The notes beneath the pieces were generated by a model. It was not told the origin of the DNA and made no database searches. It was given only the letters and a program-made list of their open reading frames with translations. Positions 34,120 through 57,069 of a DNA stretch of 64,000 nt are shown here, piece by piece. Each line of letters starts with the position of its first letter. Within the stretch, counting starts at the first letter, position 1. This DNA is from Bacteroidales bacterium (GTDB lineage Bacteria; Bacteroidota; Bacteroidia; Bacteroidales; JAADJA01), in the NCBI GenBank assembly GCA_020052415.1, contig JAGVPB010000011.1, positions 62,001-126,000 on the forward strand, written 5' to 3'. The translations under genes were made by a program, and so were the position numbers.

Positions 34120-34518
34120 ACGTAATCCTTTAGAAGATTTTTCTGGCCATTTGGTATCCGACTTTCACCCTTAAAAGTTCTTATTTTGTTATTAATTGCA
34201 ATCCCTGCAAAAATACATTTACTTCGGTAATTTTTAACAATAATGAAAAATTACTTTTCTTCAAATCTAATCAATTTGTGCTAAGTCAAACCATAAAAAT
34301 ATAATAAGAGGTCTGTTGCTAATTATCTGAAAAAAAATAAGGTAAATATTGTAAATTACAAATTATAATACGTACTTTTACCTTCTTAAAACTTTTCTAA
34401 TTTCAGTTTGTTAAAGGTCGGGATCAAAATGTTCATAATACCGGGAATTCTGGTTGTGGTTGACAAGAATGTCAACTACAAGAGAATATTTTTTTAGATG
34501 GACATATAATTGAGTAAA
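34120..34518. other. AT-rich intergenic region upstream of the giant adhesin
   Basis: No gene is supported in these ~400 bp between divergent genes. The notable element is the inverted repeat GTTGACA-AGAA-TGTCAAC at 34459-34476, 43 bp before the adhesin ATG, which could be an operator or a leader hairpin. No good -33/-7 pair was found. Confidence 0.5.
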
Positions 34519-37500
34519 ATGCGGTTGAAGAAGAAGATATATTTCATTCATATTCTTATTTTTTTTCTTACTCCCTTACTTCTAGTAGGTAAGGGTTCTG
34601 ATTATTATTGGATAAGTGGATCCGGTAATTGGTCAGATACCCTGCATTGGTACTCCGTTTCCGGCGGGCTGCCTGATTCTGCTGATAATGTAATTTTCGA
34701 TATGAATTCATTCAGTGGACCTGATCAGGAAGTCACGATTGATACTACAGCATATTGTCACAATATGGACTGGTCGCTTGTTTCAAACCAACCTTTTTTA
34801 TCAGGAACCGATGATATGTATATTTCCGGTTCATTTATTTTATCGCAGGAAATGGCTCTGAACTTTACCGGGAATATTTATTTTACGACAGGCGAGGCAG
34901 GACAGCTGATTCAATCAAACGGCAATGTTTTAAATTCACCTGTTATTTTTGACGGAACGGGTTCCTGGATATTGGCTGACGATTTCAACAATAACCTGAA
35001 AAATATATCATTAATTAACGGATCCCTCAATTTATCGGGTAAAACATTAAAATGCGGTTCTTTTATTTCTGCCGGTGGATCAAATAAATCTCTGAACATT
35101 GAATCTTCCGAAGTAATTATTCAATCTTCAAACGGAAGCTGGAACATTGATAATCAACTTAATTTACTATCTGATTATTCAACATTAATATTTTTTCAAA
35201 ATAGTTATTCCACTATAAACTCATTTCATGGTGGCAACAAGGTTTATTATGACCTGATCTTTTATAATGATGCAATAATCACCGGAAGCAATAGTTTCAG
35301 GAATGTTTATTTAAATCCGGAACATAACTATAAACTTGCAAGCGGATCAACTCAAACAATAAATGGAACACTGACCGCACGGGGGTGTGCAGGTCCGATG
35401 AGAATCTCCGCGACCGGATCAAACCAGGCTATGATCGCAAAAAGTAATGGTGATATCAGGATTTCATCCGTTGCATTGCATTCAATAAAGGGAATTGTTT
35501 CATCACCGTACCAGTTTGACGCTGTGAATTGTATTGACGAAGGTAATAATGAGGGCATCAATATTTTCTCGCAGGAACGTAATATGTATTGGATAAATGG
35601 ATCAGGAAACTGGTCGGATACCACTCATTGGACGTCCCTTCCGGTTAATGAGGATTCAGATTGCATTCCTCAGGATATTGATAACGTATATTTTAATGAA
35701 GATTCATTTGATGGAACGGATACTGTTAATGTTGATGTTAATGAAATCAGGTGCAATAATATGTTCTGGTCAGGGAATGATCAGCCTGTATTTAAAAATT
35801 CACCCGCAATAAGCAGGATTTCAATTTATGGCTCCCTGCAATTTATGGCCTCAATGCAGAATAATTTTGATAAACCTGTTTTCTTTTGTGATACCCTTAA
35901 CGGCCAAACGATTACATCCGCCGGGCAAAAATTTAATAATGATTTATATTTTACTGGTAAGCAAGGTGGTTGGACCCTTATAGACAGCCTTGATGTGGAT
36001 GGAAAGATTCACTTCCTGCGAGGAAATTTATACACCAATAACAATTATTTGAGTTGTCTTACATTCCAGTCTGATTCTGCATTTGTACGTTCGCTAAATA
36101 TCGGAAATTCAGACATTAAAATTAAGGGTATTTATAACGGATATTCATGGCGGTTGAATACTGATTCACTACAGTTTTATGCAGGTACATCAAATATTGA
36201 AATCATTGCTGCAAGCGGAACCTTATATCAATATGGCGGAGATACGGTGATATATCACAATGTACTATTCAGCGGGATTACAGGAACTGCCAGACTATTT
36301 ACCAATTCTGACACTTACTCGATATTTCATAAAGTCGATTTTAAAAGTAACGGAAGTATATTTAGTAATAATTCGTTTGACACTCTTGCGTTTTCACCTG
36401 GAAATTATTATGATTTGGCATCAGGGAGTACACAAACTATCAACGAAACAATATACCCATCAGGTACCTGCAATGGACCAATTTTATTAAAAGCCTCAAC
36501 CAACGGGAGTCTTGCAAGGCTGAAATCAAATATTGACACATTGAAAGTAGATTATACTTCGCTGCGTGATATCTACACTGCTGGTAATGCTGCTTTTATC
36601 GCTGAAAATTCAGTTGACCTCGGAAACAATAACGGTTGGGATACCATCATGGTATCAGCGCCCGGTAAACTTTACTGGGTTGGTGGCACAGGCGAATGGA
36701 ATGATCAAATGCACTGGTCATTGATCAGTGGCGGTACCGGTGGTGAATGTATCCCGACCCCTTATGACACGGTGATCTTTGATCAAAACTCTTTTACTTC
36801 TGCTGACCAGTATTCACGCATTAATTTAAACAATGCATTTGCACACAATATGGATTGGAGCACAGCCGGTTTTGTTCCGGATTTTAAAGGAACAAGTAAT
36901 GGCGCTTACCTGAGAATTTATGGATCGCTGAAATTAAATCCTTTAATGAAATTTACTTACCCGGCATATATATGGTTTGAATCCTCGGATTCCAATGAAA
37001 CTATAATTACCGAAGGAATTAAATTCAATAATGTTAATAATAACGTTTATTTTGATGGCATAGGTGGAATGTGGTCCCTTATGGATAGCCTGCAGTTGGG
37101 TTCATCCAAAACAAATCAAAATTGTATTTTCTTTAATAACGGTTATATAAATTCCAATAATCAGTATATTGATTGCTTTAGCTTTTATTCAACCTTAACA
37201 ACGCCGAGGATTTTATCTCTCAGCACATCTGAAATCAAAATACAAAATGAATGGTATTTTAATGGAACAAACTTAAGTCTAACTGAAAATCAATCCAATA
37301 TTCAGATTGATTCCGGACGATTTGTTCATATTTCAGGCAATTACTTTCCTTATCACGATGTAAATTTCAATCATTCCTATGCAAACCAGGTGCTCTATAC
37401 AAATAATGCTGATTCAGTTCTCTTCGATGATGTGATATTTCATACCAGTAATGGTAAAGCCTATGGTTCGAACGGATCGGTTTATGGACATAGCCTTTTA

Positions 37501-39438
37501 TTTGAAGGAGCCGGCCAGATCAATGAAACAAATATTCCTTCTTCAAATGTTTACATAATTGATAGTTTGGATTTTAATTCCACCGGGTTAATTTATGGAA
37601 ATGATACGGTGAGAAATTTTGTTAAGTTTGACTCTGTCGGAACCATTATCGGAAATGGAGAATATGTAAATGCCCGGTTTAAGAACGATGGAAATATTTT
37701 TGGAAATAATACCTTTGATACGCTTACTTTCACACCCACGCACAGCTATCAGTTAGGAAGCCAGGACATTCAGACTGTGATTGATTCATTCAGCATTATC
37801 GGAAATAATTGCCAGTCAATCATCCTTTATGCCAGCTCAGATTTACCGGCTGTTGTTTATAAAGACACAGGTTCTGTTTTTGGAGATTATATTGAAATGA
37901 CCGGTATCAAAGCGACAGGGAATGCAATATTTGATGCCGGTAAATTTAGTACAGATGTTGACAATTCAAATGAAGGCTGGCTGTTTCATGATTCTCCTTT
38001 AAATTTTAGTCTGGGACCTGATATTTCAATTTTGGAGGGTGAAACGGTTTATCTGTGTGCCGAAAATTTTAATGGCAACAGCACATCAACCTATGAATGG
38101 TCAAGATGTGAGACGGGAGAAATTTTAGGCACAGATTCGTGTAATCTTTTTTCACAGAAGGGGCATTATTGTTTAAGCGTTTATTATACAGAAGGAGGTG
38201 GCTGCGTTAAATCGGACGAAATCTATGTAGGCTGTCACCTTGATTTAGCTTTTGATACCACGCATGTCAGCTGCAATGGCTTTGCCGATGGATCAATTGA
38301 AATGGAAATTATTACAGGATTTGGGCCTTTTGATATCAATTGGTATTATAACGGAAACTGGATAAGTTCAGCTCAAAATATTTATGATCTTACTGCAGGC
38401 CATTATGTGTATTCAATTTCCGATACCGAAGAATGTATGTCAACCGATACTGTCACGATTCATGAACCGGAATCCCTCCAAATGAACTATAATTCATTCC
38501 CGGCATGTTACGAGGTCTTAAATGGCGCAATTATACTTGAGGTTAGCGGGGGTACGGAACCTTATCAATATTACTGGTCAAATGGTTCATCAAATCCTGA
38601 ATTAACCGGGATTGGACCCGGCATTTACGACATCACAGTTACGGATGAACATTTGTGTCCGCCAATAACAAAATCGGTTACGGTCACCGGGCTTCCTGAA
38701 CTTATCGTGAACTTAACCGGCACGGATTTGAATTGTTATCATGATGGCAGTGGATCAATAGAGGCAAATGAAGTGACCGGAGGCTCCGGTATTTATACCC
38801 TGTATGAATGGTTAAAAGACACTACTTTTTATACCGGTTCTCCTGATATAGGCGATCTAATGGCAGGCACCTATACATTAAGAGTTACTGACGATTATGG
38901 ATGTACCGGAATAAACAGTGTAACAATCACTGAACCTGAAGAAATTATTCTTGAACTTTCCGGGGATAGTAACATTGAAACCCAGGGCTCAGCCTATCTG
39001 AATGTGACCGGAGGTGCCGCGCCTTATAGCTACTTTTGGAGTAACGGAGCCACTACACAGAATATCAGTTACCTTGAAGGAGGAAATTATATTGTAACTG
39101 TTACGGATTCTCATTCATGTAGTACTACCGACTCTATTTTTGTTTATGTTCATTATAAAATCTTTGCACCTACAGCCTTTAGTCCCAATGGCGATGGTAT
39201 TAATGAAGAATTTGTATTCTTTGAAGTTGGCACTGATTTACAAGAAATGGACATGGTGATTTTCAACCGTGCTGGTCAGAAGGTATTTAAAACCACTGAT
39301 ATAAAAAACTATTGGAACGGAAATCTTAACAATAGTGGAAATCCATGCCCTGTTGAAGTTTATACCTGGTTTGCCAAACTTACATTTACCAATGGTGAAT
39401 CATTGGTTTATAAAGGAAATGTCAGCCTGCTGAGATAA
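34519..39438 (+). CDS. Giant secreted adhesin with SprB repeats and T9SS type B sorting domain
   Basis: About 1,639 residues from the ATG at 34519 (MRLKKKIYFIHILIFFLTPL is the signal peptide; a TTG three codons earlier is less likely). Three homologous segments at roughly residues 28, 355 and 718 each start with a YWxxGxGxWxDxxHW motif (YWISGSGNWSDTLHW, YWINGSGNWSDTTHW, YWVGGTGEWNDQMHW) and head a ~330-residue beta-rich block. A PKD-like stretch follows (~1170-1235), then four SprB-type repeats (~1243-1540; SCNGFADGSIEMEI, GGTEPYQYYWSNGSS, GTYTLRVTDDYGCTG). The end is the gliding-motility-associated C-terminal domain (APTAFSPNGDGINEEFVFFE ... YKGNVSLLR). SprB-like adhesins are moved along the cell surface by the gliding machinery or stay as surface adhesins. 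Confidence 0.92.
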   Translation: MRLKKKIYFIHILIFFLTPLLLVGKGSDYYWISGSGNWSDTLHWYSVSGGLPDSADNVIFDMNSFSGPDQEVTIDTTAYCHNMDWSLVSNQPFLSGTDDMYISGSFILSQEMALNFTGNIYFTTGEAGQLIQSNGNVLNSPVIFDGTGSWILADDFNNNLKNISLINGSLNLSGKTLKCGSFISAGGSNKSLNIESSEVIIQSSNGSWNIDNQLNLLSDYSTLIFFQNSYSTINSFHGGNKVYYDLIFYNDAIITGSNSFRNVYLNPEHNYKLASGSTQTINGTLTARGCAGPMRISATGSNQAMIAKSNGDIRISSVALHSIKGIVSSPYQFDAVNCIDEGNNEGINIFSQERNMYWINGSGNWSDTTHWTSLPVNEDSDCIPQDIDNVYFNEDSFDGTDTVNVDVNEIRCNNMFWSGNDQPVFKNSPAISRISIYGSLQFMASMQNNFDKPVFFCDTLNGQTITSAGQKFNNDLYFTGKQGGWTLIDSLDVDGKIHFLRGNLYTNNNYLSCLTFQSDSAFVRSLNIGNSDIKIKGIYNGYSWRLNTDSLQFYAGTSNIEIIAASGTLYQYGGDTVIYHNVLFSGITGTARLFTNSDTYSIFHKVDFKSNGSIFSNNSFDTLAFSPGNYYDLASGSTQTINETIYPSGTCNGPILLKASTNGSLARLKSNIDTLKVDYTSLRDIYTAGNAAFIAENSVDLGNNNGWDTIMVSAPGKLYWVGGTGEWNDQMHWSLISGGTGGECIPTPYDTVIFDQNSFTSADQYSRINLNNAFAHNMDWSTAGFVPDFKGTSNGAYLRIYGSLKLNPLMKFTYPAYIWFESSDSNETIITEGIKFNNVNNNVYFDGIGGMWSLMDSLQLGSSKTNQNCIFFNNGYINSNNQYIDCFSFYSTLTTPRILSLSTSEIKIQNEWYFNGTNLSLTENQSNIQIDSGRFVHISGNYFPYHDVNFNHSYANQVLYTNNADSVLFDDVIFHTSNGKAYGSNGSVYGHSLLFEGAGQINETNIPSSNVYIIDSLDFNSTGLIYGNDTVRNFVKFDSVGTIIGNGEYVNARFKNDGNIFGNNTFDTLTFTPTHSYQLGSQDIQTVIDSFSIIGNNCQSIILYASSDLPAVVYKDTGSVFGDYIEMTGIKATGNAIFDAGKFSTDVDNSNEGWLFHDSPLNFSLGPDISILEGETVYLCAENFNGNSTSTYEWSRCETGEILGTDSCNLFSQKGHYCLSVYYTEGGGCVKSDEIYVGCHLDLAFDTTHVSCNGFADGSIEMEIITGFGPFDINWYYNGNWISSAQNIYDLTAGHYVYSISDTEECMSTDTVTIHEPESLQMNYNSFPACYEVLNGAIILEVSGGTEPYQYYWSNGSSNPELTGIGPGIYDITVTDEHLCPPITKSVTVTGLPELIVNLTGTDLNCYHDGSGSIEANEVTGGSGIYTLYEWLKDTTFYTGSPDIGDLMAGTYTLRVTDDYGCTGINSVTITEPEEIILELSGDSNIETQGSAYLNVTGGAAPYSYFWSNGATTQNISYLEGGNYIVTVTDSHSCSTTDSIFVYVHYKIFAPTAFSPNGDGINEEFVFFEVGTDLQEMDMVIFNRAGQKVFKTTDIKNYWNGNLNNSGNPCPVEVYTWFAKLTFTNGESLVYKGNVSLLR

Positions 39439-41736: not shown

Positions 41737-41928
41737 ATGGAAAGTATAGTAGTTATTCCAAGAAAAAAAACAGATACCAGGTTCCTGGTTAATCTTTTAA
41801 AATCACTCGATAAAGTGAAAAGCGTGAAAATTGAAAATATAGTTTCCGATGCCGGTATCTCTGAGACATCACTGGCCAAAGACTGGAATACACCTGAAGA
41901 TGACAGATGGGATAAAAACCTTATTTAG
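41737..41928 (+). CDS. Putative antitoxin of a MazF-type module
   Basis: 63 residues: MESIVVIPRKKTDTRFLVNL, then LKSLDKVKSVKIENIVSDAG and a C-terminal SLAKDWNTPEDDRWDKNLI. Short acidic-tailed proteins of this type regularly precede MazF/PemK-like toxins in Bacteroidota: the N-terminal half should dimerise and the Trp/Asp-rich tail should thread along the toxin. The toxin gene starts 2 bp after this stop codon, a normal operon arrangement, but that toxin is truncated, so the antitoxin may be an orphan. It could still repress its own promoter. Confidence 0.65.
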   Translation: MESIVVIPRKKTDTRFLVNLLKSLDKVKSVKIENIVSDAGISETSLAKDWNTPEDDRWDKNLI

Positions 41929-41930
41929 CT

Positions 41931-42055
41931 ATGTATAGTAAAGGTGATATAGTAAAAGTTAGATTCCCGTTTTCTGATTTCTCACAAGGCAAGATCAGAC
42001 CAGCGCTGGTTATTTCTGATGAAGAAATACACAAGTCAACTGGTGACTACATTTT
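41931..42055 (+). pseudogene. Truncated MazF/PemK-family toxin
   Basis: Only the first ~42 residues of the toxin remain: MYSKGDIVKVRFPFSDFSQG and KIRPALVISDEEIHKSTGDYIF, the usual first strands and RNA-binding loop of MazF. Then the frame passes straight into the 3' end of the oppositely oriented gene at 42047-42697 and stops at 42125 with unrelated residues (SLKFQFIISNDLLSFLFH). Normal MazF toxins are 105-120 residues, so more than half is missing and activity is unlikely. The join marks a deletion or insertion boundary near 42055. Confidence 0.75.
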
Positions 42056-42697
42056 TTTGTCTTTAAAGTTCCAGTTTATTATTAGCAACGATCTTCTTTC
42101 GTTTTTATTCCATAATCCGAACTGAAAGCCTCTTAATTTTACAGTCTTATTTACAATTCCTATCTGAAGTCCTTTAGTCATAAACGCATGATTGACAAGC
42201 CCGATTGAAACACCGTTAATTTTATGGTATAAATTCCACAACAGGTTAAATGAAAGTCCATTTATTTTCCTGCCCATGCTCATCCACATTGAAAATGAAA
42301 TTCCGTTAACCTGGTCGGTAAATGACCCGAACGGTGAAATTAATAATCCGTTATGGATTGCCCTTTTGGGTATCGTGTCAATCGTACTAATTGAGTCATT
42401 ATTTCCGGTTTTTCGAAAGTCTTTAAACTTTACTTTATTAATATAGAAAGTTTGTAAAAATCCTTGTCCTAAAACCTGGAAGTTAAGTCCGTGCGAATAC
42501 TTAGTATAAGGCCTTTTGCAAACTGCTTCTGAACCGAATGGTCCAATGGCTATTCCATAAATATTTGTGGCTGCTGAAGGAATTAACCAAAAAACATATC
42601 GGTCAGTTTTCTTCTTGTCGGGTAGTATGGTGTCATTTTGCGAAAAAGAAAAGATCGCATTGCAGAATATCAATACGGTTATGGTAATTATCTTCAT
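42047..42697 (-). CDS. Secreted LA_2272-like surface repeat protein
   Basis: 216 residues with signal peptide MKIITITVLIFCNAIFSFSQ. The C-terminal half is made of short repeats of the type xNGxSxGLxNxxxxxxGxQxG: VNGISFSMWMSMGRKINGLS, KINGVSIGLVNHAFMTKGLQ, IGIVNKTVKLRGFQFGLWNK. These match the LA_2272-type surface repeat family, predicted to form a stacked beta structure. Function is unknown. The 3' end meets the truncated MazF toxin. The gene sits directly upstream of nothing obvious and 22 bp after the asparagine synthase start-distal end on the same strand, so it could be read through from that operon. Confidence 0.65.
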   Translation of the reverse strand: MKIITITVLIFCNAIFSFSQNDTILPDKKKTDRYVFWLIPSAATNIYGIAIGPFGSEAVCKRPYTKYSHGLNFQVLGQGFLQTFYINKVKFKDFRKTGNNDSISTIDTIPKRAIHNGLLISPFGSFTDQVNGISFSMWMSMGRKINGLSFNLLWNLYHKINGVSIGLVNHAFMTKGLQIGIVNKTVKLRGFQFGLWNKNERRSLLIINWNFKDKKM

Positions 42698-42721: not shown

Positions 42722-44719
42722 TTACGTGCTGACCACAGTATCCTTATCTCCTACCAACTTCAATGCAGCAAGCCTGTCGCCACTTGCATCAAATGAATTG
42801 TCCTTTACAAACATCATGTTTACGAGCTGGGTAGATATGATGCCCGCAAGCGCCATATTTTCGACTTCGGTGATGGCCGCTCCCGAATTAAACTTTTCCA
42901 TCAGCTTGGCCACTTTAGCGGCATCGAAAATACCATAATTATTAATGGCCGGTGCGGATAACATTTCGTTTACATAAGCAGGTGGGTTCACACCGAAAAA
43001 GCTGGTATGGATGGGCGCTCTGTAAGCCTGTTTATGCCGGGTAAGTATGGATTCAGGAATTTTTCCCTTCATCATCTTTTTAAGGATATATTTCTCATCG
43101 AGCAGGTGCAGCTTAGCATCTTCCGGTATCTTAGCTGCAAATTCGATCACCCTGTAATCGAGGAAAGGATACCTTCCTTCAACAGAATTGGCCATTGCCA
43201 TCCGGTCGCCCTGGGATGAAAGCAGGTAACCCGACATAAATATTGTGGACTCAAGATATTGTGATTTTGCAAGATCGCCGAAGCCTGCAAACTTTTCAGC
43301 AAGGTTTTTAGATACCTCAGTCACCGGATCATAATTTCCCAGTTCCGCTCTCAGATCGTCACTAAAATAGTTTTGTATCCTTGAGGTGTTGTGCCACCTG
43401 AGAATATGGGAATACAACGGATTGTCAGTTTCGGTGAGCTTATAGCCGAAAAATGTTTTCAATACACCGGCCGGTGCTGTTTTCATCCAGGGAAGATACG
43501 GATAAAGCTTTTTCAGCAACAGCGGCCTGATCGCGGATTGAGGCTGTCGCGCCCAGAATCTCCGGATTTTAGCTTCTTTAAAAATATTATAACCTGCAAG
43601 CATCTCATCGGCGCCTTCGCCTGTGATGACCACTTTGATATTATTTTCCCGAACCTTTTTCGACAACAGATACATGGGCGTCGGCGCTGTGCGCAAAACT
43701 GGAAATTCAGTATGTTTTATCGTATCATAAAATGCTTCACCAATGTCTTCTGAAGTACAGGTAAATGCTTTATGGCTGGTATTGAAATAAGCAGAGGCTT
43801 CAAGCTGGTAACTTGTTTCGTCGAAAGCCTTATCCTTAAATCCAATGGAAAATGTATTTAAAATACCCGGCTCGATTTCGTGTATGAAAGCTGTCGTTAC
43901 ACTCGAATCAATACCTCCGCTCAGATATGCAGCTACCTCCACATCCGCCCTCAGCCTTATCCTCACAGCATCGCGGAAAAGTTCACGAAGCTCCTCCACT
44001 GAATCTTTAAAGCCGTTTAAGGATACATTTCCTGCTGGGGGAAATGCCAAAGTCCAGTATTTCTGAATAGTAAATTCTCCAGGCTTCACAAGCATATAAT
44101 GTCCCGGAGGCAGTTCATAGATATTTTCATAAGGAGTGTCGGGAGTTATGGTTGTCCAAAAGGTAAAAATCTGGGAAAGACCACGGTTGCTGATCTTTCT
44201 GTCAATCTCCGGGTTTTGAAACAGTCCTTTTATTTCAGAGCAAAAAGATATACTTCCGTTATGATTGGAATAGAATAGCGGACGGATGCCTACCCTGTCG
44301 CGGGCAAGAAATAATTCCTGCTTCTGTTTGTCCCATATTGCAATGGCGAACTGACCGTTAAATTTATTGAGACAGGCAGGTCCGTAGTGTGCATAAGCCT
44401 GAACGACGACTTCAGTATCCGAGGTGGTACGAAAGAAATAGCCCAGTTTTTCGAGTTCAGCGCGAAGTTCGATGTAGTTGAAAATTTCGCCGTTATAAAC
44501 AATCCAGTATCTTTCATTCTGAATGGAGATGGGCTGCTGGCCGGATGAAAGATCAATGATGCTCAGCCTTACGCTTCCCAGTCCGATATTTTTTCCAAGA
44601 TAAATTCCACTTTCATCCGGCCCCCGGTACCATATTACCGAAAGCATCCTTTTCAACAGCTCTTCCGAAACCGGTTTTCCGGGAGATTTAAAATGATATA
44701 TTCCGGCAACACCGCACAT
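42722..44719 (-). CDS. asnB: Asparagine synthase-like glutamine amidotransferase
   Basis: 665 residues. Cys2 of MCGVAGIYHFKSPGKPV is the glutaminase nucleophile, and the class II domain (1-~210) has RGPDESGIYLGKNIGLGSVR, VYNGEIFNYIELRAELEKLG and DTEVVVQAY. The synthetase domain (~230-600) has the PP-loop YLSGGIDSSVTTAFIHE and VVITGEGADEMLAGY and SVEGRYPFLDYRVIEFA. Members either make asparagine or amidate other carboxylates such as uronic acids or carrier-bound intermediates. It is 12 bp after the carrier protein gene, inside a Dlt-like cluster, so a modification role is more likely here than bulk asparagine supply. Confidence 0.9.
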   Translation of the reverse strand: MCGVAGIYHFKSPGKPVSEELLKRMLSVIWYRGPDESGIYLGKNIGLGSVRLSIIDLSSGQQPISIQNERYWIVYNGEIFNYIELRAELEKLGYFFRTTSDTEVVVQAYAHYGPACLNKFNGQFAIAIWDKQKQELFLARDRVGIRPLFYSNHNGSISFCSEIKGLFQNPEIDRKISNRGLSQIFTFWTTITPDTPYENIYELPPGHYMLVKPGEFTIQKYWTLAFPPAGNVSLNGFKDSVEELRELFRDAVRIRLRADVEVAAYLSGGIDSSVTTAFIHEIEPGILNTFSIGFKDKAFDETSYQLEASAYFNTSHKAFTCTSEDIGEAFYDTIKHTEFPVLRTAPTPMYLLSKKVRENNIKVVITGEGADEMLAGYNIFKEAKIRRFWARQPQSAIRPLLLKKLYPYLPWMKTAPAGVLKTFFGYKLTETDNPLYSHILRWHNTSRIQNYFSDDLRAELGNYDPVTEVSKNLAEKFAGFGDLAKSQYLESTIFMSGYLLSSQGDRMAMANSVEGRYPFLDYRVIEFAAKIPEDAKLHLLDEKYILKKMMKGKIPESILTRHKQAYRAPIHTSFFGVNPPAYVNEMLSAPAINNYGIFDAAKVAKLMEKFNSGAAITEVENMALAGIISTQLVNMMFVKDNSFDASGDRLAALKLVGDKDTVVST

Positions 44720-44731
44720 GTAACTTCAGGA

Positions 44732-44983
44732 TTAATTGAGTTTTTTACTAATGAAGTTCACAATTGCATTCACCGATTCGAAGTTCTCCTCAAGCAGTTC
44801 GGAATCTGCCGCTTTAATCTGGAAATGGTCCTCGATAAAATTAATTAATGATAAAAATCCCATCGAATCAAATATTCCATCCACAAAGATTTTGGTGTCA
44901 TCCTGCACTTTTTCCTTAGCAACATAAGATGTTTCGACAATAAAATTTTTCACTCTTTCCTTAGCTTCGGCAGTATCAATCAT
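44732..44983 (-). CDS. Acyl/aminoacyl carrier protein
   Basis: 83 residues with the phosphopantetheine-attachment serine at Ser40 in VDGIFDSMGFLSLINFIEDH, the standard helix II motif of carrier proteins, and an acidic surface (DSELLEENFESVNAIVNF). It differs from the fatty-acid AcpP consensus LGADSLDTVEL and is closer to stand-alone carriers of the DltC/peptidyl type. It lies 12 bp upstream of the asparagine synthase-like gene and near an AMP-forming ligase, an MBOAT and SGNH-like proteins, so it probably carries the group that is transferred to the cell surface. Confidence 0.88.
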   Translation of the reverse strand: MIDTAEAKERVKNFIVETSYVAKEKVQDDTKIFVDGIFDSMGFLSLINFIEDHFQIKAADSELLEENFESVNAIVNFISKKLN

Positions 44984-45049
44984 TTTAGTAATTATTAAAA
45001 AATGTAATTAATAGTTTTATTTTCTGTAAGCGGGTATAAAAATAGAGGG

Positions 45050-45922
45050 TTATTTAATATACTCGCCCGTTAACGTAGTTTTCTGTCCATTTGTTTCGAT
45101 AACATCTGCTATTCTCTGGCAAAACAGTGGGGAAGCCTTCGCAGCGAATTCACCGGAGAGATGCGAATTACCGGCGTTACGTGCATTCTTTACCGGCAGG
45201 TAAATTCCTCCTTCGGTTTCAAGTTCGTAAAAATCCCAGATAAAAATATTATCATCCTGCACATCCCATTCGTTTTTTACCCAATCCGCAAATTCTTTTG
45301 TTCGTGCAGCATAACCAGGATTTGTCTTTGCTTCAACCAGCGCCGGTGCTGTCCATACTAGGAATTTGTTATCAGGAAACCGCTGCATTTTTTCTTTTAG
45401 AGCCTCATACTGGGCTTTATAATTTTCAAGACTTTTTATCTTTGAATCCAGAACAGCCGCTCCCTGGTCTTCCTCTATATAGCCTGCCGGGAAGCAATGT
45501 TTAAAAATAATCAGTTTATAGTCCTTTGTCAGTATTTCAAGGGTTGGCTCATCTTTATAGGGATTTTCACCTTCGTTTTTCACCCATATATTGTAATAAT
45601 CATACGGGTAATTTTCCCAGCCATAAGGTTGTTCTTTCGGAAATGTTTCCTCAGAAATAATATAATTTGTACCGTTTTCTTCATTATACTTTTTGAACCA
45701 TTCCGGTGTAGCCGATGTTTTACCGAATAAATTTTTCGTGATGCCGGAGCCTTTGTCACTGCCATTCCAGACAGCTTCACCGGTACTGTGGTGCAGGAAA
45801 ATAATCTTATATTGATTTTCGGTATTCACCATTGTTTCCTGTCTTTTGCAGTTTGTATGCAAAGATAATAACAGGAAAACATAGAACATAATCAGGTAAT
45901 AGTTTTTTATCTTTGTCGCCAT
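45050..45922 (-). CDS. Membrane-anchored SGNH-hydrolase-like protein (first of two)
   Basis: About 290 residues from the ATG at 45922 (MATKIKNYYLIMFYVFLLLS), a signal anchor or lipoprotein-like leader ending in HTNCKRQ; a longer frame back to 45973 looks non-coding. The start of the mature domain is KIIFLHHSTGEAVWNGSDKG, and near the end comes NARNAGNSHLSGEFAAKASP, placing a catalytic-type Ser/Thr early and a His near the C-terminus as in SGNH esterases or acyltransferases. YKLIIFKHCFPAGYIEEDQG is another conserved-looking strand. The identification is by general architecture only. It sits between the carrier protein and the divergent MBOAT gene, so a role at the periplasmic step is likely. 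Confidence 0.55.
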   Translation of the reverse strand: MATKIKNYYLIMFYVFLLLSLHTNCKRQETMVNTENQYKIIFLHHSTGEAVWNGSDKGSGITKNLFGKTSATPEWFKKYNEENGTNYIISEETFPKEQPYGWENYPYDYYNIWVKNEGENPYKDEPTLEILTKDYKLIIFKHCFPAGYIEEDQGAAVLDSKIKSLENYKAQYEALKEKMQRFPDNKFLVWTAPALVEAKTNPGYAARTKEFADWVKNEWDVQDDNIFIWDFYELETEGGIYLPVKNARNAGNSHLSGEFAAKASPLFCQRIADVIETNGQKTTLTGEYIK

Positions 45923-46006
45923 TGCGCTCGGAATTTTAAGTAAATACTTAAATTTAATTAAACCTTTTGTCACTTATATGGTTAAAATTACTTTTACTAT
46001 TTATTA

Positions 46007-47446
46007 ATGTTATTCAATTCTTTTTATTATTTTATTTTTCTTACAACAGTTTTTTTGGTTTACTACCTCGTAAACAATAAAACAAAGTGGTTTGTTCTTT
46101 TCGCAGCCAGTTTATTATTCATTGGAACCATTGCCCCAAATTTAGTAATATTTACTTTGATCTTCACTGTTGTAAATTATTTTTTTGGAATCGTACTTCA
46201 AAGCTCCAGGAATAAACCCACCCGGCTTTATATATTTTGGTCAGGTATAGCCATAAATATTGGGGTACTTGCTTTTTATAAATACATCAATTTTCTGTTT
46301 GAAAATATAAATTTCATTTTGAGCATGTTTCCTGCTCGACCTGCAATACCATACCTGTCGTTGATCATTCCTGTAGGTATATCCTATTACACATTTCAGG
46401 CATTGGGTTATTTGATAAGGATAAACCGTGGCGCAGAACAGGCGGAGAAAAATTTTATCGTCTTTGGTACTTTTTTAACCTTTTTCCCTAAATTTTTAGC
46501 CGGACCTGTTGAAAGGTCGAACCACTTTTTCCCCCAGTTAAAAAAACAGATTGAATTTAAGTCTGAAAACATTTCTGCCGGACTGAGGTTGATCCTGTGG
46601 GGTATGTTTAAAAAAGTGGTTATAGGAAATAATCTTGCCGGGCCCGTTACCCTGGTATATAACGACCTTCATAATTACTCCGGGATTCCGTTACTTACGG
46701 TTTTGTTTATTCAAACCATACATCTGTATTGTGATTTTTCGGGTTACACCGATATGGCCCTTGGTTCGGCAAAACTTTTAGGAATCGACCTTGTGGATAA
46801 TTTTAACCGTCCGTTCTTAGCTAAAAATGTCGGGGAATTCTGGCGACGCTGGCATATTTCCTTATCCTCCTGGTGCAACGATTTCATTTTCTCACCTTTT
46901 ATTGTTAAATACCGAAAGCTGGGTAATAAAGCTGCTATATTGGGAATATTCCTCGCATTTTTCGTAATCGGAATCTGGCATGGCGCTAACTGGACATTTG
47001 TTGTACTAGGCCTTCTTCAGGGAATAGCGATCAGTTATGAGTTTTATACAAAAAAACAAAGATTGATGATTGCTGCCAAGCTTCCGCCAAAACTTGCAGT
47101 GAGAATCAGCAGGCTGATCGTTTTTGTTTTCTTTTGTTTTACACTCGTTTTTTTTAATGCACAATCGCTGAGCGACTCATGGTATTTTATAACCCATTTA
47201 TTTACTGATTTACAATGGCAGGTTAGCGGACATAAATTTATTTTTGAAGGTGGAAATTTTATTTTTGCCCTTATCATGTTCCTGTTTCTTTTTATAGCAG
47301 AAATATATGAAGAAAAAGGAGTTAGCCTCATCGGCTACTTTTTAAGCAGGCCAAGATATTTAAGGTGGGCTGGATACTATTTGCTTATTGTAATGATCTT
47401 TTATTTTACAGGTGGCGAAGATACTTTCGTTTATTTGCAGTTTTAG
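46007..47446 (+). CDS. MBOAT-family membrane O-acyltransferase (AlgI/DltB-like)
   Basis: 479 residues with about 11 membrane helices. Family landmarks are LIIPVGISYYTFQALGYLI, FLTFFPKFLAGPVERSNHFF, IHLYCDFSGYTDMALGSAKL and LLGIDLVDNFNRPFLAKNVG, EFWRRWHISLSSWCNDFIF, and the catalytic His in FVIGIWHGANWTFVVLGLLQ. AlgI and DltB are the closest functional models: they pass an acyl or D-alanyl group through the inner membrane to a periplasmic acceptor with help from an SGNH protein. The next gene, 24 bp away, is SGNH-like, and a ligase and carrier protein lie either side. This makes a Dlt-like export path the best explanation. Confidence 0.92.
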   Translation: MLFNSFYYFIFLTTVFLVYYLVNNKTKWFVLFAASLLFIGTIAPNLVIFTLIFTVVNYFFGIVLQSSRNKPTRLYIFWSGIAINIGVLAFYKYINFLFENINFILSMFPARPAIPYLSLIIPVGISYYTFQALGYLIRINRGAEQAEKNFIVFGTFLTFFPKFLAGPVERSNHFFPQLKKQIEFKSENISAGLRLILWGMFKKVVIGNNLAGPVTLVYNDLHNYSGIPLLTVLFIQTIHLYCDFSGYTDMALGSAKLLGIDLVDNFNRPFLAKNVGEFWRRWHISLSSWCNDFIFSPFIVKYRKLGNKAAILGIFLAFFVIGIWHGANWTFVVLGLLQGIAISYEFYTKKQRLMIAAKLPPKLAVRISRLIVFVFFCFTLVFFNAQSLSDSWYFITHLFTDLQWQVSGHKFIFEGGNFIFALIMFLFLFIAEIYEEKGVSLIGYFLSRPRYLRWAGYYLLIVMIFYFTGGEDTFVYLQF

Positions 47447-47470
47447 TTGAATGATCTTTAAATCAGATAT

Positions 47471-48400
47471 ATGGAAATGAAAAAATACATATTGAGATTA
47501 TTACTGTTTTTGAGTCCGGTATTTTTTTGTTTTGTTTTAATCGTTGTTGTGGATCCGTATGAGTTTTTTGATGTTTTTCATTGGGTTAGTGTTGAAGATA
47601 AAAAGAAAGTAATGAACAGGAATGATGAATCCTCGCCCCGTGGAAATATATTGTGGAAAACCATCCACTTTAAAAGGAAACCGCAAAAAAATATCCTGAT
47701 CGGGGATTCACAAGGAAAAAATATGAAAGTTGAACTGATCAAAGAAATTAGCGGGGAGGATGTTTTTAATTATTGTGTAGCCGGTGCCAGTTTCGAAACT
47801 TTATTCGAGATGTTTTGGTATGCCGCGAATCAGATCAAACTGGAAAAGGTATATTTCCAGGTTGCTTTTATGAATTACAACCTCAGCAGGTCGTACAACA
47901 TCTTTTACTTTGCCAAGGATTACCTCGATAATCCGATAAAATATTTCACTACAAAAGAGATATATTTTGATACCTTCGTTAATATTGATTATCATTTAAC
48001 TAAAAATCCAAGCCTGGTTTCCAACACTTATGAATTTACTCCTGAAAGTGAAATGAATGCACTGGCCGATTACCGTCTGGATTTATTTTTCAGCAATTAT
48101 ATTTATCCCGAATCTTATTACATTGAGCTGGTCAAAATAAAAGAATATTGTGAGGCTAATGGTATTGAACTGAAGTTTATTATTCTTCCAACTTATAAAG
48201 CAGTGGATGAGTACCTGGCAAAAAATAACCTTACTGGAATGAAGGAGCGGTTCAAGAATGATATAAAGTCCTTAGCATTAGCAAGCGATTTGGACATTCC
48301 CGGTGAGATTAAAGAAGATCGGAAAAATTTCGTTGATTACTTTCACCCCATCCAGCCTGTATTGGATACACTGACCTATGAAATCTGGGCGAAAAAGTGA
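47471..48400 (+). CDS. SGNH-like partner of the MBOAT (AlgX/AlgJ/DltD-type)
   Basis: About 309 residues. KKYILRLLLFLSPVFFCFVL is an N-terminal membrane anchor. The mature part has NILIGDSQGKNMKVELIKEI, a GDS-type nucleophile motif of SGNH hydrolases (with Ser at GDSQ), VFNYCVAGASFETLFEMFWY as the following strand-helix, and RKNFVDYFHPIQPVLDTL near the end, supplying Asp and His as in the SGNH DxxH motif. It follows the MBOAT gene by 24 bp. In alginate, cellulose and teichoic acid systems, an SGNH protein receives the acyl group from the MBOAT and loads the polymer. Family-level assignment rests on motif spacing and context. Confidence 0.68.
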   Translation: MEMKKYILRLLLFLSPVFFCFVLIVVVDPYEFFDVFHWVSVEDKKKVMNRNDESSPRGNILWKTIHFKRKPQKNILIGDSQGKNMKVELIKEISGEDVFNYCVAGASFETLFEMFWYAANQIKLEKVYFQVAFMNYNLSRSYNIFYFAKDYLDNPIKYFTTKEIYFDTFVNIDYHLTKNPSLVSNTYEFTPESEMNALADYRLDLFFSNYIYPESYYIELVKIKEYCEANGIELKFIILPTYKAVDEYLAKNNLTGMKERFKNDIKSLALASDLDIPGEIKEDRKNFVDYFHPIQPVLDTLTYEIWAKK

Positions 48401-48414
48401 ATTTTTATAAACTC

Positions 48415-49881
48415 TCAGTATTTTGACTTCTTACCTGCAGTATTAAATGTCAGTTTAGTTTCGAACACTACCTTTTGAGGGATTTTCCAGGACGATAACT
48501 TTTGAGCGCAATGCTGTTTTATAGATTCTTCTGAAAAATTCCCTTGCTCAGCTTCATTAATAAAAACGGTAGCCTTCACTGATTCGCCGGTAATTTCGTC
48601 AGTTTCCGCTTCAATTGTGCAATCAATAACTCCGGGGTAGGTAACAATCACTTCTTCAATCTCCTTTGGGCTGATCCTGATCCCCCTGACTTTGATGATT
48701 TCTTTTTTCCGGCTTCTGATGTAAATATAACCGTCATTATCCACCGTTGCCATATCGCCCGTGTGCAGCCATCCGTCGTGAAGAGCAGTCTTGGTTGCTT
48801 CCGGGTCCCTGAAATAGCCGGGCATGATGTTTTCTCCCTTTGCGATGATTTCACCGGTTTCATCCGGCTGTACCTCAACGCCATGCTCATTTACCACTTT
48901 GAGTATAACTCCCGGGATACCTTTCCCGATTGATCCAAGTTTTTGTTTTAAATCTGAGGGCGGAAGATACGACAGGCGTGCGGTAGCCTCGGTTTGGCCA
49001 TACATGACATGAAATTTTATGTCGGGAAAAGAATCAATGAATTCCTGTATAAAAACAGTGTGCAATTTCCCGCCCGCCTGTGTTACATATTTCAATGAAT
49101 GAAATTTGGTCTCCTTGAAATCTTTTGTTTTCCTCAATAGAATTTGAAAATGACTCGGCACACCTGCAAATCCGGTGCAATTATATTTATTCAGATCACT
49201 GATCACACTACCAATAAATATGAAGGAATTGTTAAGAACCACTGAACCGCCGACACGCATGTGTGTATGCAACAACGATAATCCATAGCAATAATAAAAA
49301 GGCATGACGATTTCAATGGTATCCCTTTCGGTGAGTCCCAGATATTCTATGATGGAATTGGAATTAGCAATGATATTCCGGTGGGTAATCATTACCCCTT
49401 TTTGTTCGCCGGTTGAGCCTGATGTAAATATGATTTCAGCTAAGCGGTTCCCGTCGAACCCGGAATCCGCTGGTTCAGGTATAACTGCTTTATCATCCCC
49501 TGTCCAGGAGTTTATGGATTCATCATCAAGAATTTTAAATGAAAAATTATCAAAACGGGCGGAATATCTTTTGCTGACAAATGCCAAATCCGATCCGGTT
49601 TTTGTAATGACTTTCTGAAGATTTTCCGGTTCTATCGCTGGATTCAATGGAACACATACATTCCCTGATTTCATGATCGCAAGGTAAGCGGTAATGAAAA
49701 ATACTGAATTTTCGCAAAGAATCAGAATATTGGTGTTTTCACCGCAGGATTCATTTAACCTGGAGGCAACTTTTAGCGAATCAGTATATAATTTTTCGTA
49801 AGAAACTGTCTCCCGCGTTCCCAGAACCAGGTATTTCGATAACTCAGCTGTGTTTTGAAAAAAATAATCAAACACATTCAT
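48415..49881 (-). CDS. AMP-forming acyl/aminoacyl ligase (ANL superfamily)
   Basis: About 488 residues from the ATG at 49881 (a TTG two codons upstream is possible). Core motifs: IIFTSGSTGEQKGVMITHRN (P-loop, A3), FHVMYGQTEATARLSYLPPS (A5), WLHTGDMATVDNDGYIYIRS (A7), RKKEIIKVRGIRISPKEIEE (A8) and the catalytic lysine region near the C-terminus, KLTFNTAGKKSKY (A10). It should activate a carboxylic or amino acid with ATP and load it on a thiol, most likely the nearby carrier protein. The length and place resemble DltA. Substrate is unknown. It is 5-12 bp after the second NAD-synthase-like gene, in one operon. Confidence 0.9.
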   Translation of the reverse strand: MNVFDYFFQNTAELSKYLVLGTRETVSYEKLYTDSLKVASRLNESCGENTNILILCENSVFFITAYLAIMKSGNVCVPLNPAIEPENLQKVITKTGSDLAFVSKRYSARFDNFSFKILDDESINSWTGDDKAVIPEPADSGFDGNRLAEIIFTSGSTGEQKGVMITHRNIIANSNSIIEYLGLTERDTIEIVMPFYYCYGLSLLHTHMRVGGSVVLNNSFIFIGSVISDLNKYNCTGFAGVPSHFQILLRKTKDFKETKFHSLKYVTQAGGKLHTVFIQEFIDSFPDIKFHVMYGQTEATARLSYLPPSDLKQKLGSIGKGIPGVILKVVNEHGVEVQPDETGEIIAKGENIMPGYFRDPEATKTALHDGWLHTGDMATVDNDGYIYIRSRKKEIIKVRGIRISPKEIEEVIVTYPGVIDCTIEAETDEITGESVKATVFINEAEQGNFSEESIKQHCAQKLSSWKIPQKVVFETKLTFNTAGKKSKY

Positions 49882-49892
49882 TGGCAATAGGT

Positions 49893-50885
49893 TTAGACAT
49901 TAAAGTAAAAAGGATTGGCTCTTAAATATTCGGTAGTTTTCTTTTTACGTGCAAAGTTTTCAAAAATGATTTCAACCTCCTGTTCCGTTTTACCCATTAC
50001 CCTTGCTACTTCGGCTTTATCATATCCGTTTTCAAACCCAAACCACATAAGGTCCATCACTTCAAAGGGCAACTGGTAGAAAAATTCCTCCTGTGTTTGT
50101 TCAGCGCTATATGTATCGGTTGTAGGTGTACGGTCAATGATTTCCTGGGTCACACCTAAATACCTCGCCAACTGGTAAACCTGGGTTTTATAAAGTTTCG
50201 CAAGCGGGAACAGGTCAGCGCCGCCATCACCGAATTTGACGAAGAATCCCTGGTCTATTTCATGTTTGTTGGCTGTTCCAAGCACGACAAAATGTTTTTG
50301 TTCAGCATGGTAATAAACCATTGACATACGGCAACGCTGTTTAAAATTCGAGGCAGCCACAATCTGAAGATATTCTTTTACAGGAATAACCTTGCTTTTC
50401 ACTTCGCCATTTTCGCGGATGATGGTAAGATGAAAGACGGGAGGTAATTTTTGATCCAGCCCGGTTTGATTGATACCGATCTTGGATTTGTCGGTTACAG
50501 GATTAAATTCGGGGAATACTCTTTTCATTGCTTCATCACGCCTGCCGTAGCATTTAAATCCTTCAAGGGCAGGCCTGATATTTTCCACCACAGCCTCAAC
50601 ACCGAATTTTTTTGCCAGTTTTTCGGCAAGGTTTTCACTATCCGGACTTGAATCTTTTTCAGGCATCATTACCCCGAATACCCTTTCGGCACCCAGGGCT
50701 TTTACTGCCAGTGCCATAGTAACGGATGAATCAATGCCACCGCTGATCCCGATGACCGCTCCCCTTCTTTTGTACTTGTTAAAAATTTGATCTTTAAGTT
50801 GTTCACCAAGCCGGTTTATAACCGATCCAACGTCTTCAAAATGCAAAATATTTTTCGAAAACAGCTGCTTATTATTTTGGATCAT
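49893..50885 (-). CDS. NAD+ synthase-like ATP pyrophosphatase (second copy, cluster-associated)
   Basis: 330 residues, without a glutaminase domain. The PP-loop is GISGGIDSSVTMALAVKALG with Ser48 to Ser53, and later segments HFVVLGTANKHEIDQGFFVK, FGDGGADLFPLAKLYKTQVY and RTPTTDTYSAEQTQEEFFY match NAD synthase. A ~45-residue insertion relative to minimal NadE (about residues 110-155, CYGRRDEAMKRVFPEFNP onward) is unusual. The organism already has a full two-domain NadE at 10.2-11.9 kb. With the ligase 5-12 bp downstream and AsnB in the cluster, this copy probably amidates or otherwise activates a substrate of the surface-modification pathway, though a second ammonia-dependent NAD synthase is not excluded. 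Confidence 0.83.
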   Translation of the reverse strand: MIQNNKQLFSKNILHFEDVGSVINRLGEQLKDQIFNKYKRRGAVIGISGGIDSSVTMALAVKALGAERVFGVMMPEKDSSPDSENLAEKLAKKFGVEAVVENIRPALEGFKCYGRRDEAMKRVFPEFNPVTDKSKIGINQTGLDQKLPPVFHLTIIRENGEVKSKVIPVKEYLQIVAASNFKQRCRMSMVYYHAEQKHFVVLGTANKHEIDQGFFVKFGDGGADLFPLAKLYKTQVYQLARYLGVTQEIIDRTPTTDTYSAEQTQEEFFYQLPFEVMDLMWFGFENGYDKAEVARVMGKTEQEVEIIFENFARKKKTTEYLRANPFYFNV

Positions 50886-52302: not shown

Positions 52303-52477
52303 GTTCAAAGTTTAAAGTTCGAAGTTCGAAGTTCGAAGTTCGAAGTTCGAACTTCGAAGTTCATTGCCTATTTCTATCTGCCGGTGGTTCACAGTTTTCT
52401 GTTTTCTGTTTTCTGTCCTCTCTTCTCAATTCCCACACCCAGCCTGAAACTTGAAACCTTGAACCTGAAACCAATTT
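52303..52477. repeat. Heptad-phased intergenic array of 25 units
   Basis: One 7-bp phase runs unbroken over 175 bp: GTTCAAA, GTTTAAA, five GTTCGAA, CTTCGAA, GTTCATT, then less regular units, GTTCACA, three GTTTTCT, GTCCTCT, and finally CCTGAAA, CTTGAAA, CCTTGAA, CCTGAAA. The consensus changes along the array but the register does not. It fills the whole gap between the exonuclease-gene start and the yidC stop. Confidence 0.92.
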
Positions 52478-54403
52478 ACCTTTTTGCCGGTTTATATCCT
52501 CTTGCTTTGGCAGCGTCTTCGAGCCGTTTTTGCCAGCTTGACTTTTTCTTAGGAGGCTTCTTCTTATTTTCTTCTATCTGTTTCCTGATTTTATCTTCGT
52601 CAATCATTTTTCTTATAACCCACATTTGACCAAATGTAATAACATTGGCAAGGAAATAATAATAACTCAGGCCGGAAGCATAATTATTAAAAATACCAAG
52701 AAACATCACAGGCATAATGTACATCATGGTTTTCATGCCCGGTAGCTGCTGCTGGCCTCCTCCCATTAAATCCTGGTTGATTCGGGTGTAAATAATCGTT
52801 GATATGGTCATCAGAAGTGTAAAAAGGCTAACATGGGAACCATAGAACGGTATCTTAAACGGCAGGTCAAGTATGGAATCATAGCTTGAAAGGTCGTCAG
52901 CCCAAAGGAATGCCTCCTGCCTTAATTCAAATGCCGCAGGGAAGAACCTAAACATTGCGATAAGGATAGGGAACTGAAGCAGCATGGGAATGCAACCGGC
53001 CATAGGATTCACACCTGCCTGTTTGTATAAAGCCATAGTCGCCTGCTGTTTTTTCATCGCATCTTCTTTCTTGGGGAATTTTTTGCCGAGTTCATCAATG
53101 TCCGGCTTCAAAAACCGCATCTTTGCAGAGGAAATATACGATTTATAAGCGATTGGAAGAAGAACAATCTTTAAAAGAATGGTAAGTATAAGTATAATTA
53201 TACCATAGTTCCAGCCAAAACCTTCTAACAAATTAAACACAGGAAGCACGGCATAACGGTTAATCCACGCCAGCAGGAAGAAACTCCATCCCAGCGGTAT
53301 CTGGCGTTCCAGATCAAGTTTATACTGTCGCAGGGTCTTGAACTTATTCGGACCAAATAAAACGACATAGGAACAGAAGTCGTTTCAGTAATTTTAAACG
53401 GGATATTGATGGCTGTTTCGGCTGACCGGAGATATTGCTTGTTCGGATGTTCGGCTAACGTAAACGTTTTAATTTTTGCGCTGAGAAAATGATCTTTCGC
53501 AATCAAAGTAGATGTAAAAAAGCGTTGTTTGAAGCCGATCCATTTGACTCTTGTAATAAGGTCTTCTTCGTCATCCTTTGTTTCGGAAAGAAAATCCACA
53601 TCATCCTGGTAATATTTATAATAGATGGTCGGGCCGTTAAACTGATCAACGCCTTTTTCAGATTGCAGCATTTCTGCGCTCCAGGAAAGATCTATAAAAT
53701 TGGTGCCTGCATCCACAAATTGGTTCATTCCGACAAAGTTGATGTCGAAATCTATCATATAATCAGCCCCTTTAAGCGTATAAAGGAATTCAATATAACT
53801 CGCTTTGTTAAGCACGGAATCACCGGCATCCGTATAAAGCCTCATCGAAAAGCTTTTGGAATCGTTTGCAGAAATTTTAAAGTTTGTGTCAGAAGCCGGA
53901 TGAAAAAATAACTCATTCGTATTAATAAGCCGGTTAGCTGCAAAAAAAGTAATGCCGAAATTGGTTTTCTCCGGATCGAACATCAGCAGTGGAAGGGAAT
54001 CATAAGTGTGGAAATCCTTCAACTCTACAGTGATAATTTTGCCACCCTTAGCAGCGATCGTAATTTTCATCAGCTCGTTTTCGATGATATAGTTTCGATC
54101 CTCTCCGGTTGCTGATCCGGCAAAGATTCCAAGCTTATCGCGGTCAATTACTGATATGCTTTCTGTGCCTGGAGTGGCCTCTGTCTTAGTGACCACTTCC
54201 TGCGTCATTCTTACCGAGTCGAGCAGGTGTTGTTCCGCTGCTTTTAATATTGTTAGGGAATCCCTGACTCTTTGGGTTTGTAATATTGAATCCTGTTTAT
54301 GGCGTAAAGCCTCTTTTTCTTCTTTGGAAGGTGTTACCCAAATGCTGTAACCAACCAGGATCAGAAAAATGAAAATGATTCCGATAATTGTATTTCTATC
54401 CAT
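52476..54403 (-). CDS. yidC: Membrane protein insertase YidC (one-base frameshift near 53356)
   Basis: Two overlapping frames make one YidC of about 642 residues. The N-terminal part starts MDRNTIIGIIFIFLILVGYS at 54403 and holds the large periplasmic domain (NYIIENELMKITIAAKGGKI, YSIEFLYTLKGADYMIDFDI-like strand). It reads in frame to TTSVPMSFY, then shifts. The correct continuation, FGPNKFKTLRQYKLDLERQI, is in the next frame and joins the C-terminal insertase core (NLLEGFGWNYGIIILILTIL, QQATMALYKQAGVNPMAGCI, FNNYASGLSYYYFLANVI) and Lys-rich tail. One extra T on the coding strand in the TTT at 53355-53357 would restore it. YidC is essential, so this is probably a sequencing or assembly error rather than a real pseudogene. 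Confidence 0.93.
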
Positions 54404-56766: not shown

Positions 56767-57069
56767 TTATTTCAATATTCTGCTTAGATCATGTGGGTTT
56801 TGTCTGCAATCCCAAATTGTCAGTACCAAGATTTCTTTTGGCATCGCTTCATAAATAATCAGGTATTCTTTCAATACTTTTAACCTGACATTATTTTTAT
56901 CGGTACGCCTTCCAATTTGAGGATACTTAGCAATCAGAACAAGCGATTGCCTGATCAGTTCATTCAATTTCCTGCTGTATAAATTGGATTTGTTCCTGTT
57001 ATTCCAGTATTCGAGAATTTTTCTTCTGTCGTTTTGTGCCCTGGCTGTCCAGGTTATTCGCCTAACCAT
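56767..57069 (-). CDS. RelE/ParE-family toxin
   Basis: 100 residues: MVRRITWTARAQNDRRKILE and YWNNRNKSNLYSRKLNELIR, then LIAKYPQIGRRTDKNNVRLK and VLKEYLIIYEAMPKEILVLT, the four-stranded sheet and basic surface of the RelE/ParE superfamily. The C-terminus IWDCRQNPHDLSRILK is the usual DxRxxP/L terminal tail. Members cut mRNA at the ribosome (RelE) or poison gyrase (ParE); the pattern does not settle which. It overlaps its antitoxin gene by 16 bp. The module is convergent with miaA, starting 17 bp after the miaA stop, and is the first cassette of the miaA 3'-end array. Confidence 0.85.
   Translation of the reverse strand: MVRRITWTARAQNDRRKILEYWNNRNKSNLYSRKLNELIRQSLVLIAKYPQIGRRTDKNNVRLKVLKEYLIIYEAMPKEILVLTIWDCRQNPHDLSRILK

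Follow-up and report, generated by a model that had tools for sequence, protein, structure and literature searches.

A conserved NadE-like, AsnB, carrier and ligase quartet beside an MBOAT-SGNH pair in a Bacteroidales genus, plausibly recruited to a Dlt-like export step

Seven neighbouring genes of a Bacteroidales bacterium (contig JAGVPB010000011.1 of assembly GCA_020052415.1) raise the question of whether a Gram-negative organism carries its own counterpart of the Dlt system, which places D-alanine on teichoic acid. They lie at positions 42722-50885 of the stretch of DNA analysed here (64,000 nucleotides, hereafter the window) and encode an AMP-forming ligase, a stand-alone carrier, an MBOAT acyltransferase, two anchored SGNH-like proteins, an AsnB-type amidotransferase and a NadE-like enzyme. 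All seven, first listed by a sequence-only reading that proposed a Dlt-like surface acylation, were confirmed by open reading frame (ORF) positions and by Pfam and NCBIfam searches, in which AsnB, PP-binding, MBOAT, AMP-binding and NAD_synthase were each recognised among the proteins of the locus; the host is a Gram-negative bacterium related to Bacteroidales. The set was found again in most sampled genomes of the genus and is thus not a chance assembly. Our results indicate that the cluster is not a Dlt system, that the NadE-like enzyme, AsnB, carrier and ligase (hereafter the quartet) are one conserved unit, which is the real unit of the locus, and that the MBOAT-SGNH pair has been added in this genus and in one metagenome-assembled genome (MAG) labelled Chlorobiota (L068). 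It is plausible that this pan-bacterial quartet was recruited here to a Dlt-like export step.

Quartet loci were gathered through the NadE-like protein from named genomes, relatives and phylum samples, and loci were counted as well-flanked (n = 63, duplicates removed) when the NadE-like gene had 6 kb or more of sequence on either side. Within 6 kb of this gene, we found AsnB in 59 loci, the carrier in 59, the ligase in 60 and all three in 53, which bears out the earlier proposal that ligase, carrier and amidating enzymes belong together. This linkage spans at least 11 phyla and is not plain synteny, since gene order and strand vary and the genes appear rearranged. By contig titles, the phyla are Bacteroidota, Chlorobiota, Zixiibacteriota, Acidobacteriota, Nitrospirota, Pseudomonadota, Desulfobacterota, Planctomycetota, Verrucomicrobiota, Cyanobacteria, Myxococcota and Actinobacteria, together with one Chloroflexi contig (the genus-to-phylum assignment is our own, and some phyla are represented by single MAGs). 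The same patterns also picked up eleven loci with other NadE proteins (L125-L135), which contained none of the partner genes; phage relatives of the NadE-like protein were distant matches only. As an example of a compact arrangement, the quartet of Sinorhizobium meliloti forms a four-gene operon on a pSymB-type plasmid (pSymB in strain 1021). A lipoprotein of SGNH fold often joins quartet loci as a fifth gene. The co-occurrence of all seven families across Bacteroidota, as anticipated by the sequence-only reading, was not found: the quartet was present in 13 of 395 evenly drawn Bacteroidota genomes, with an MBOAT near it in 2 of the 57 well-flanked loci outside the genus. In the literature searched (mostly open-access papers), we found no description of the quartet's function. 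Note that a contig titled Bacillus subtilis SK6B4 (L107) carries a quartet with Brucellaceae-like gene order and neighbours (cf. L098) and is probably contamination, and that a NadE-like protein of the archaeon Methanosarcina acetivorans (a control genome) scored above the quartet-type cut-off.

Could these enzymes simply make NAD and asparagine, with the other genes as unrelated neighbours? The NadE-like amide-forming ATP-pyrophosphatase (49893-50885, minus strand; first gene of the quartet) belongs to the NAD synthase subfamily NF002048 (423.8 bits against a cut-off of 313), whose fetched members were mostly quartet genes. It shares with NadE the PP-loop, GTxNxxE and GDGxxD motifs, and indeed retains the NAD synthase motifs for ATP and magnesium (SGGIDSS, GTxNKxE and GFFxKxGDGGAD). 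It differs from NadE by a central insert of roughly 60 residues (in an alignment with solved NAD synthetases), by EQTQEEFFY in place of the acceptor-side QTDExELG, by the lack of a glutaminase domain and by its near-constant presence in a quartet. In addition, the window contains a separate NadE homologue of glutamine-dependent size (545 aa; 10218-11855, minus strand), which makes the NadE-like protein a paralogue. The AsnB-type glutamine amidotransferase (42722-44719, minus strand; fourth gene) has both domains and the N-terminal Cys intact; it passes the ordinary asparagine synthase model (TIGR01536, 508 bits against 267.1) and is the only full-length AsnB of the genome, so that it may also serve ordinary asparagine synthesis. 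The general models and the retained catalytic motifs thus fit a housekeeping role; the linkage of all four genes in so many loci and phyla, the second NadE homologue and the altered acceptor-side motif argue against it, and we consider such an explanation very improbable.

The chemistry of the ligase bears on what the quartet would activate. Its gene (48415-49887, minus strand, probable start ATG at 49881; second gene) is separated by 5 bp from the NadE-like gene, and its product matches PF00501 (227 bits) and PF13193, with an oxalate-CoA ligase as its nearest solved relative. In amino-acid adenylation domains (A-domains) and in DltA, an Asp binds the alpha-amino group of the substrate. Our survey of the A4 motif found PFYYCYGLSLLHTH in ligases of the window type, without this Asp, so that a plain alpha-amino acid is probably not the substrate; the earlier suggestion of an activated amino acid therefore loses its support. 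A second ligase type, with PL[AS]FDYGLYQ in A4, occurs in rhizobia, many other phyla and the Chlorobiota-labelled MAG, and both types stand together in a few loci (L036 and L109). The carrier (44732-44983, minus strand; third gene) matches PF00550 with 24.2 bits (cut-off 20.8) and has its phosphopantetheine site, Ser40, in a DSMG motif. The DSMG motif was also considered as a predictor of MBOAT presence and dropped, being common to loci that have no MBOAT.

Membership of the Dlt system itself did not hold. Indeed, no component reaches its Dlt cut-off: the ligase, although the best match of the genome to the DltA model TIGR01734, scores 161.6 bits, far under 559.85; the carrier scores 28.3 bits with the DltC model TIGR01688 (cut-off 52.35) and the MBOAT 183.8 bits with the DltB model TIGR04091 (cut-off 375); and the DltD family PF04914 has no match in the genome, where the MBOAT partner has only a weak SGNH-fold resemblance. 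The likeness to the DltA-DltC-DltX-DltB-DltD system of teichoic acid D-alanylation is one of plan, with an adenylating ligase, a stand-alone carrier, an MBOAT, an SGNH-fold protein, an acyl-Tyr shuttle motif and a basic segment at the DltC-DltB docking site. In contrast to Dlt, the window cluster carries the shuttle Tyr on the MBOAT itself, a fusion also seen in PatA, and it has a pair of amidating enzymes and one more SGNH protein, the lipoprotein. Separately, a congener carries a compact cassette (L190, G011:C96, 4034-9755) of co-directional genes for two A-domain ligases, a carrier, an MBOAT ending in FIYLQF and a membrane protein of SGNH-like appearance; the best matches of its ligases include DltA models (271-288 bits, under cut-off), and its plan resembles that of Dlt more closely than the plan of the window cluster does.

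What, then, does the MBOAT-SGNH pair add? By ORF positions, the locus comprises three transcription units (NadE-ligase on the minus strand, MBOAT-SGNH on the plus strand and lipoprotein-carrier-AsnB on the minus strand), and the stretch between the divergent lipoprotein and MBOAT units (45923-46006) is a probable shared promoter region; promoter and terminator scans of the locus, including this stretch, gave results at chance level. The MBOAT (46007-47446, plus strand) matches PF03062 above cut-off (68.9 bits), and its catalytic His325, in a WHG motif, is invariant in the alignment. Of 14 quartet-bearing congeners, 12 have an orthologue (at least 54% identity), as against none of the two congeners that lack the quartet; the next-best MBOATs reach at most 39% identity. 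The MBOAT adjoins the lipoprotein gene wherever both lie on one fetched contig of the genus. In the tree, the MBOATs of the genus and that of L068 form one clade (support 100/100) on a long branch. In L068, the MBOAT, lipoprotein, carrier and AsnB genes are co-directional and are followed by one for a thioesterase-like protein; a further co-directional gene reads as a phosphopantetheinyl transferase.

Neither of the two anchored proteins had a convincing Pfam or NCBIfam match, and the SGNH-like nature ascribed to them earlier was upheld by structure prediction, with a good model for the lipoprotein and a weak one for the MBOAT partner. The AlphaFold model of the lipoprotein (45050-45973, minus strand, with a probable start ATG near 45922 by comparison with homologues; pLDDT 78.5) has an SGNH fold and aligns with a carbohydrate esterase (VIA-align Z 12.6, root-mean-square deviation 3.1, 185 aligned), its listed structural neighbours being carbohydrate esterases, GDSL/SGNH enzymes or designs on that scaffold. 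The alignment places its nucleophile in an HHSTG motif and a catalytic His in a C-terminal block, and in its homologues a Cys closes the hydrophobic stretch. This lipoprotein also accompanies the quartet in other families of the order (L159, L161 and L162), and in one genome (G023) the two lie on different contigs. The membrane-anchored MBOAT partner (47471-48400, plus strand; pLDDT 59) has SGNH proteins or designs on their scaffold as structural neighbours (Z 8-9.3), among them DltD (Z 8.3), and its Ser-Asp-His residues, in GDS80 and D289-x-x-H292, are invariant in four homologues.

Such a pair could draw its acyl groups either from the carrier or from coenzyme A (CoA). The C-terminal hexapeptide FVYLQF (47426-47443, plus strand), with Tyr476, fits the FXYXXF acyl-shuttle motif described in PMC12148441, and all cluster MBOATs have FXYXXF ends. 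Gram-negative O-acetyltransferases of the PatA-PatB or AlgI type likewise combine an MBOAT with this end and an SGNH partner, and are described as carrier-less and acyl-CoA-using (PMC12148441); the pair might thus be an ordinary acyl-CoA-fed O-acetyltransferase of the PatAB/AlgIJ kind, merely sited in the locus of a quartet that does something else. Its FVYLQF end is of the kind seen in acyl-CoA-using MBOATs, and the pair stands on the opposite strand and is missing from most quartet loci, one congener included. Against these points must be set the co-location of the MBOAT with the quartet over the genus, its co-direction in L068 and its separate long-branched clade, as well as the presence of a carrier and a ligase beside an MBOAT that lacks the GG[NS]R loop and has a docking segment of the carrier-associated type instead, so that we rate an acyl-CoA-fed pair as unlikely.

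The loop concerns the very site where a carrier would dock. DltC docks on DltB via M302, V305, I306, M309 and K312 of helix HC (PMC11035591). Residues 296-309 of the window MBOAT (SPFIVKYRKLGNKA; 46892-46933, plus strand) align with this helix and present the basic segment P-F-I299-V300-K301-Y-R at the docking site, where most sampled Bacteroidota MBOATs have PLGG[NS]R. Among 81 MBOATs, drawn by similarity to that of the window, a carrier gene lay within 2 kb of 9 of the 12 non-GG MBOATs compared with 1 of the 56 GG MBOATs (window clade left out; Fisher 4e-8, ignoring relatedness); this sole GG case is nearer to a non-GG sibling, and 8 of the 9 carriers scanned were above the Pfam PP-binding cut-off. 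We take this correlation as a lead strong enough to shift the balance, not as proof. The FXYXXF end, the basic docking segment and the carrier correlation together make a carrier-fed, Dlt-like export step plausible for this cluster.

Four loci (L147, L171, L197 and L220) have an FkbH-type protein (TIGR01686, 290 bits in L147) beside a carrier and a non-GG MBOAT, which suggests another class of carrier-fed MBOATs. L147 was rejected as an independent coupling of quartet and MBOAT: its MBOAT has its own carrier and its own FkbH protein, and hence supports only the idea of a carrier-fed MBOAT.

Taken together, these observations give close to an even chance that the cluster serves to attach an acyl group that bears an amide to a glycan, either exported or at the surface. 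In such a pathway, the ligase would activate a carboxylic acid as acyl-AMP and load it on Ser40 of the carrier; ammonia would be freed from glutamine by AsnB, and a carboxylate of the substrate would be converted to an amide by AsnB, the NadE-like enzyme or both. The acyl-carrier would dock on the cytoplasmic basic segment of the MBOAT, whose C-terminal shuttle would take over the acyl group on Tyr476, and the final transfer to the glycan would be made by the SGNH protein through Ser80. The SGNH lipoprotein may be a further transferase for this product or an esterase that edits it, and in loci without an MBOAT another transferase would have to accept the acyl group. We infer the nature of the acid, the amidation, the hand-over from carrier to MBOAT and the acceptor.

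Several observations weigh against this pathway. The MBOAT is lacking in 55 of the 57 well-flanked quartet loci outside the genus (the two exceptions being L068 and L147), and a congener (L045) keeps the quartet and the lipoprotein and has no MBOAT. The DSMG motif of the carrier is identical in Bacteroidota loci that have no MBOAT. On the tree, the docking-segment correlation reduces to 2-3 independent contrasts, for which a sign test is not significant. The window locus has no cluster for glycan assembly next to it, and the AsnB, as noted above, is the genome's sole full-length copy and fits the ordinary asparagine synthase model. The hand-over from carrier to MBOAT proposed earlier keeps support in so far as the MBOAT of this cluster has a carrier-fed appearance (docking segment and clade).

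A putative acceptor is suggested by the neighbourhood of quartets elsewhere. In several Bacteroidales, the quartet comes after genes for an initiating sugar transferase, Wza and Wzz, and in some genomes it adjoins exosortase genes. Among 119 neighbour proteins from many phyla, where no family reached more than seven proteins, the commonest were hexapeptide and GNAT transferases, nucleotide-sugar enzymes, polysaccharide deacetylases, glycosyltransferases and exosortase. In addition, models of the exosortase-A (PEP-CTERM) exopolysaccharide (EPS) set are among the best matches of the ligase (TIGR03098, 274.4 bits of a required 592.35) and AsnB (TIGR03108, 443.9 of 816.9), both far under cut-off, and the 2006 description of that system does not mention a NAD synthase or an amidotransferase. 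Because of these polysaccharide neighbours and EPS matches, we place the product on a glycan, which would also be the acceptor for the window cluster.

A glycan could, however, be served in the cytoplasm. The quartet might act wholly there on a nucleotide-sugar or lipid-linked sugar, making a uronamide (as WbpS) or an amide-bearing N-acyl sugar (in the way that RfbK/RfbL deal with the acyl part of the V. cholerae O1 antigen), with the SGNH and MBOAT proteins modifying the polymer separately. WbpS-type amidotransferases are indeed part of EPS and O-antigen clusters (PMC3684757) and the O-antigen cluster of V. cholerae O1 contains a ligase-carrier pair, RfbL/RfbK (PMC12208996), so that both resemble the quartet in serving a surface polysaccharide; unlike them, the window cluster joins the amidotransferase and the ligase-carrier pair with a NadE-like enzyme. 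The frequent GNAT and hexapeptide transferases beside quartets, most of which have no MBOAT, agree with this cytoplasmic route, which would leave unexplained the genus-wide MBOAT clade, its carrier-type docking segment and the SGNH lipoprotein repeatedly tied to the quartet; on balance it seems distinctly unlikely. The rhizobial operons are an exception to the polysaccharide-gene context: in Sinorhizobium, the quartet stands alone by an aldo/keto reductase and min genes, as would be expected if its product were a small amide compound able to diffuse, such as a solute or natural product, and no glycan were decorated. A diffusible product is made improbable by the polysaccharide and exosortase genes found next to quartets in Bacteroidota and in several further phyla, and by the SGNH-fold secreted proteins linked to the quartet in several phyla.

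Returning to glycan decoration, a wider proposal would be that a module of four enzymes, present in at least 11 phyla, builds an acyl group bearing an amide on a carrier of its own, and that in the Bacteroidales genus studied here this carrier directly supplies an MBOAT-SGNH exporter, as a Gram-negative Dlt counterpart with a new, amidated acyl group, and that the basic segment replacing GG[NS]R could mark carrier-fed MBOATs; we hold it tentatively, as a possibility that falls somewhat short of even. The wide and tight conservation of the quartet suggests that bacteria commonly modify their surfaces by a chemistry that has escaped attention, the quartet proteins having been labelled NAD synthase and asparagine synthase in annotations. 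Should the MBOAT prove carrier-fed, the description of non-Dlt MBOAT-SGNH systems as carrier-less (PMC12148441) would have to be revised, and carrier-accepting MBOATs would be predictable from one short stretch of their sequence.

Outside the locus, the window contains further features. A YidC-like insertase (52476-54403) is split into two overlapping ORFs (53225-54403 and 52476-53249) in a manner resembling a frameshift or an assembly error. A protein of 1642 aa (34510-39438), which has repeated domains and resembles gliding-motility proteins at its C-terminus (SPNGDGINEEF), is probably a type IX secretion cargo. Small ORFs at 41737-42125 resemble an antitoxin and a shortened PemK-like toxin, and another at 56767-57069 resembles a RelE/ParE-like toxin.

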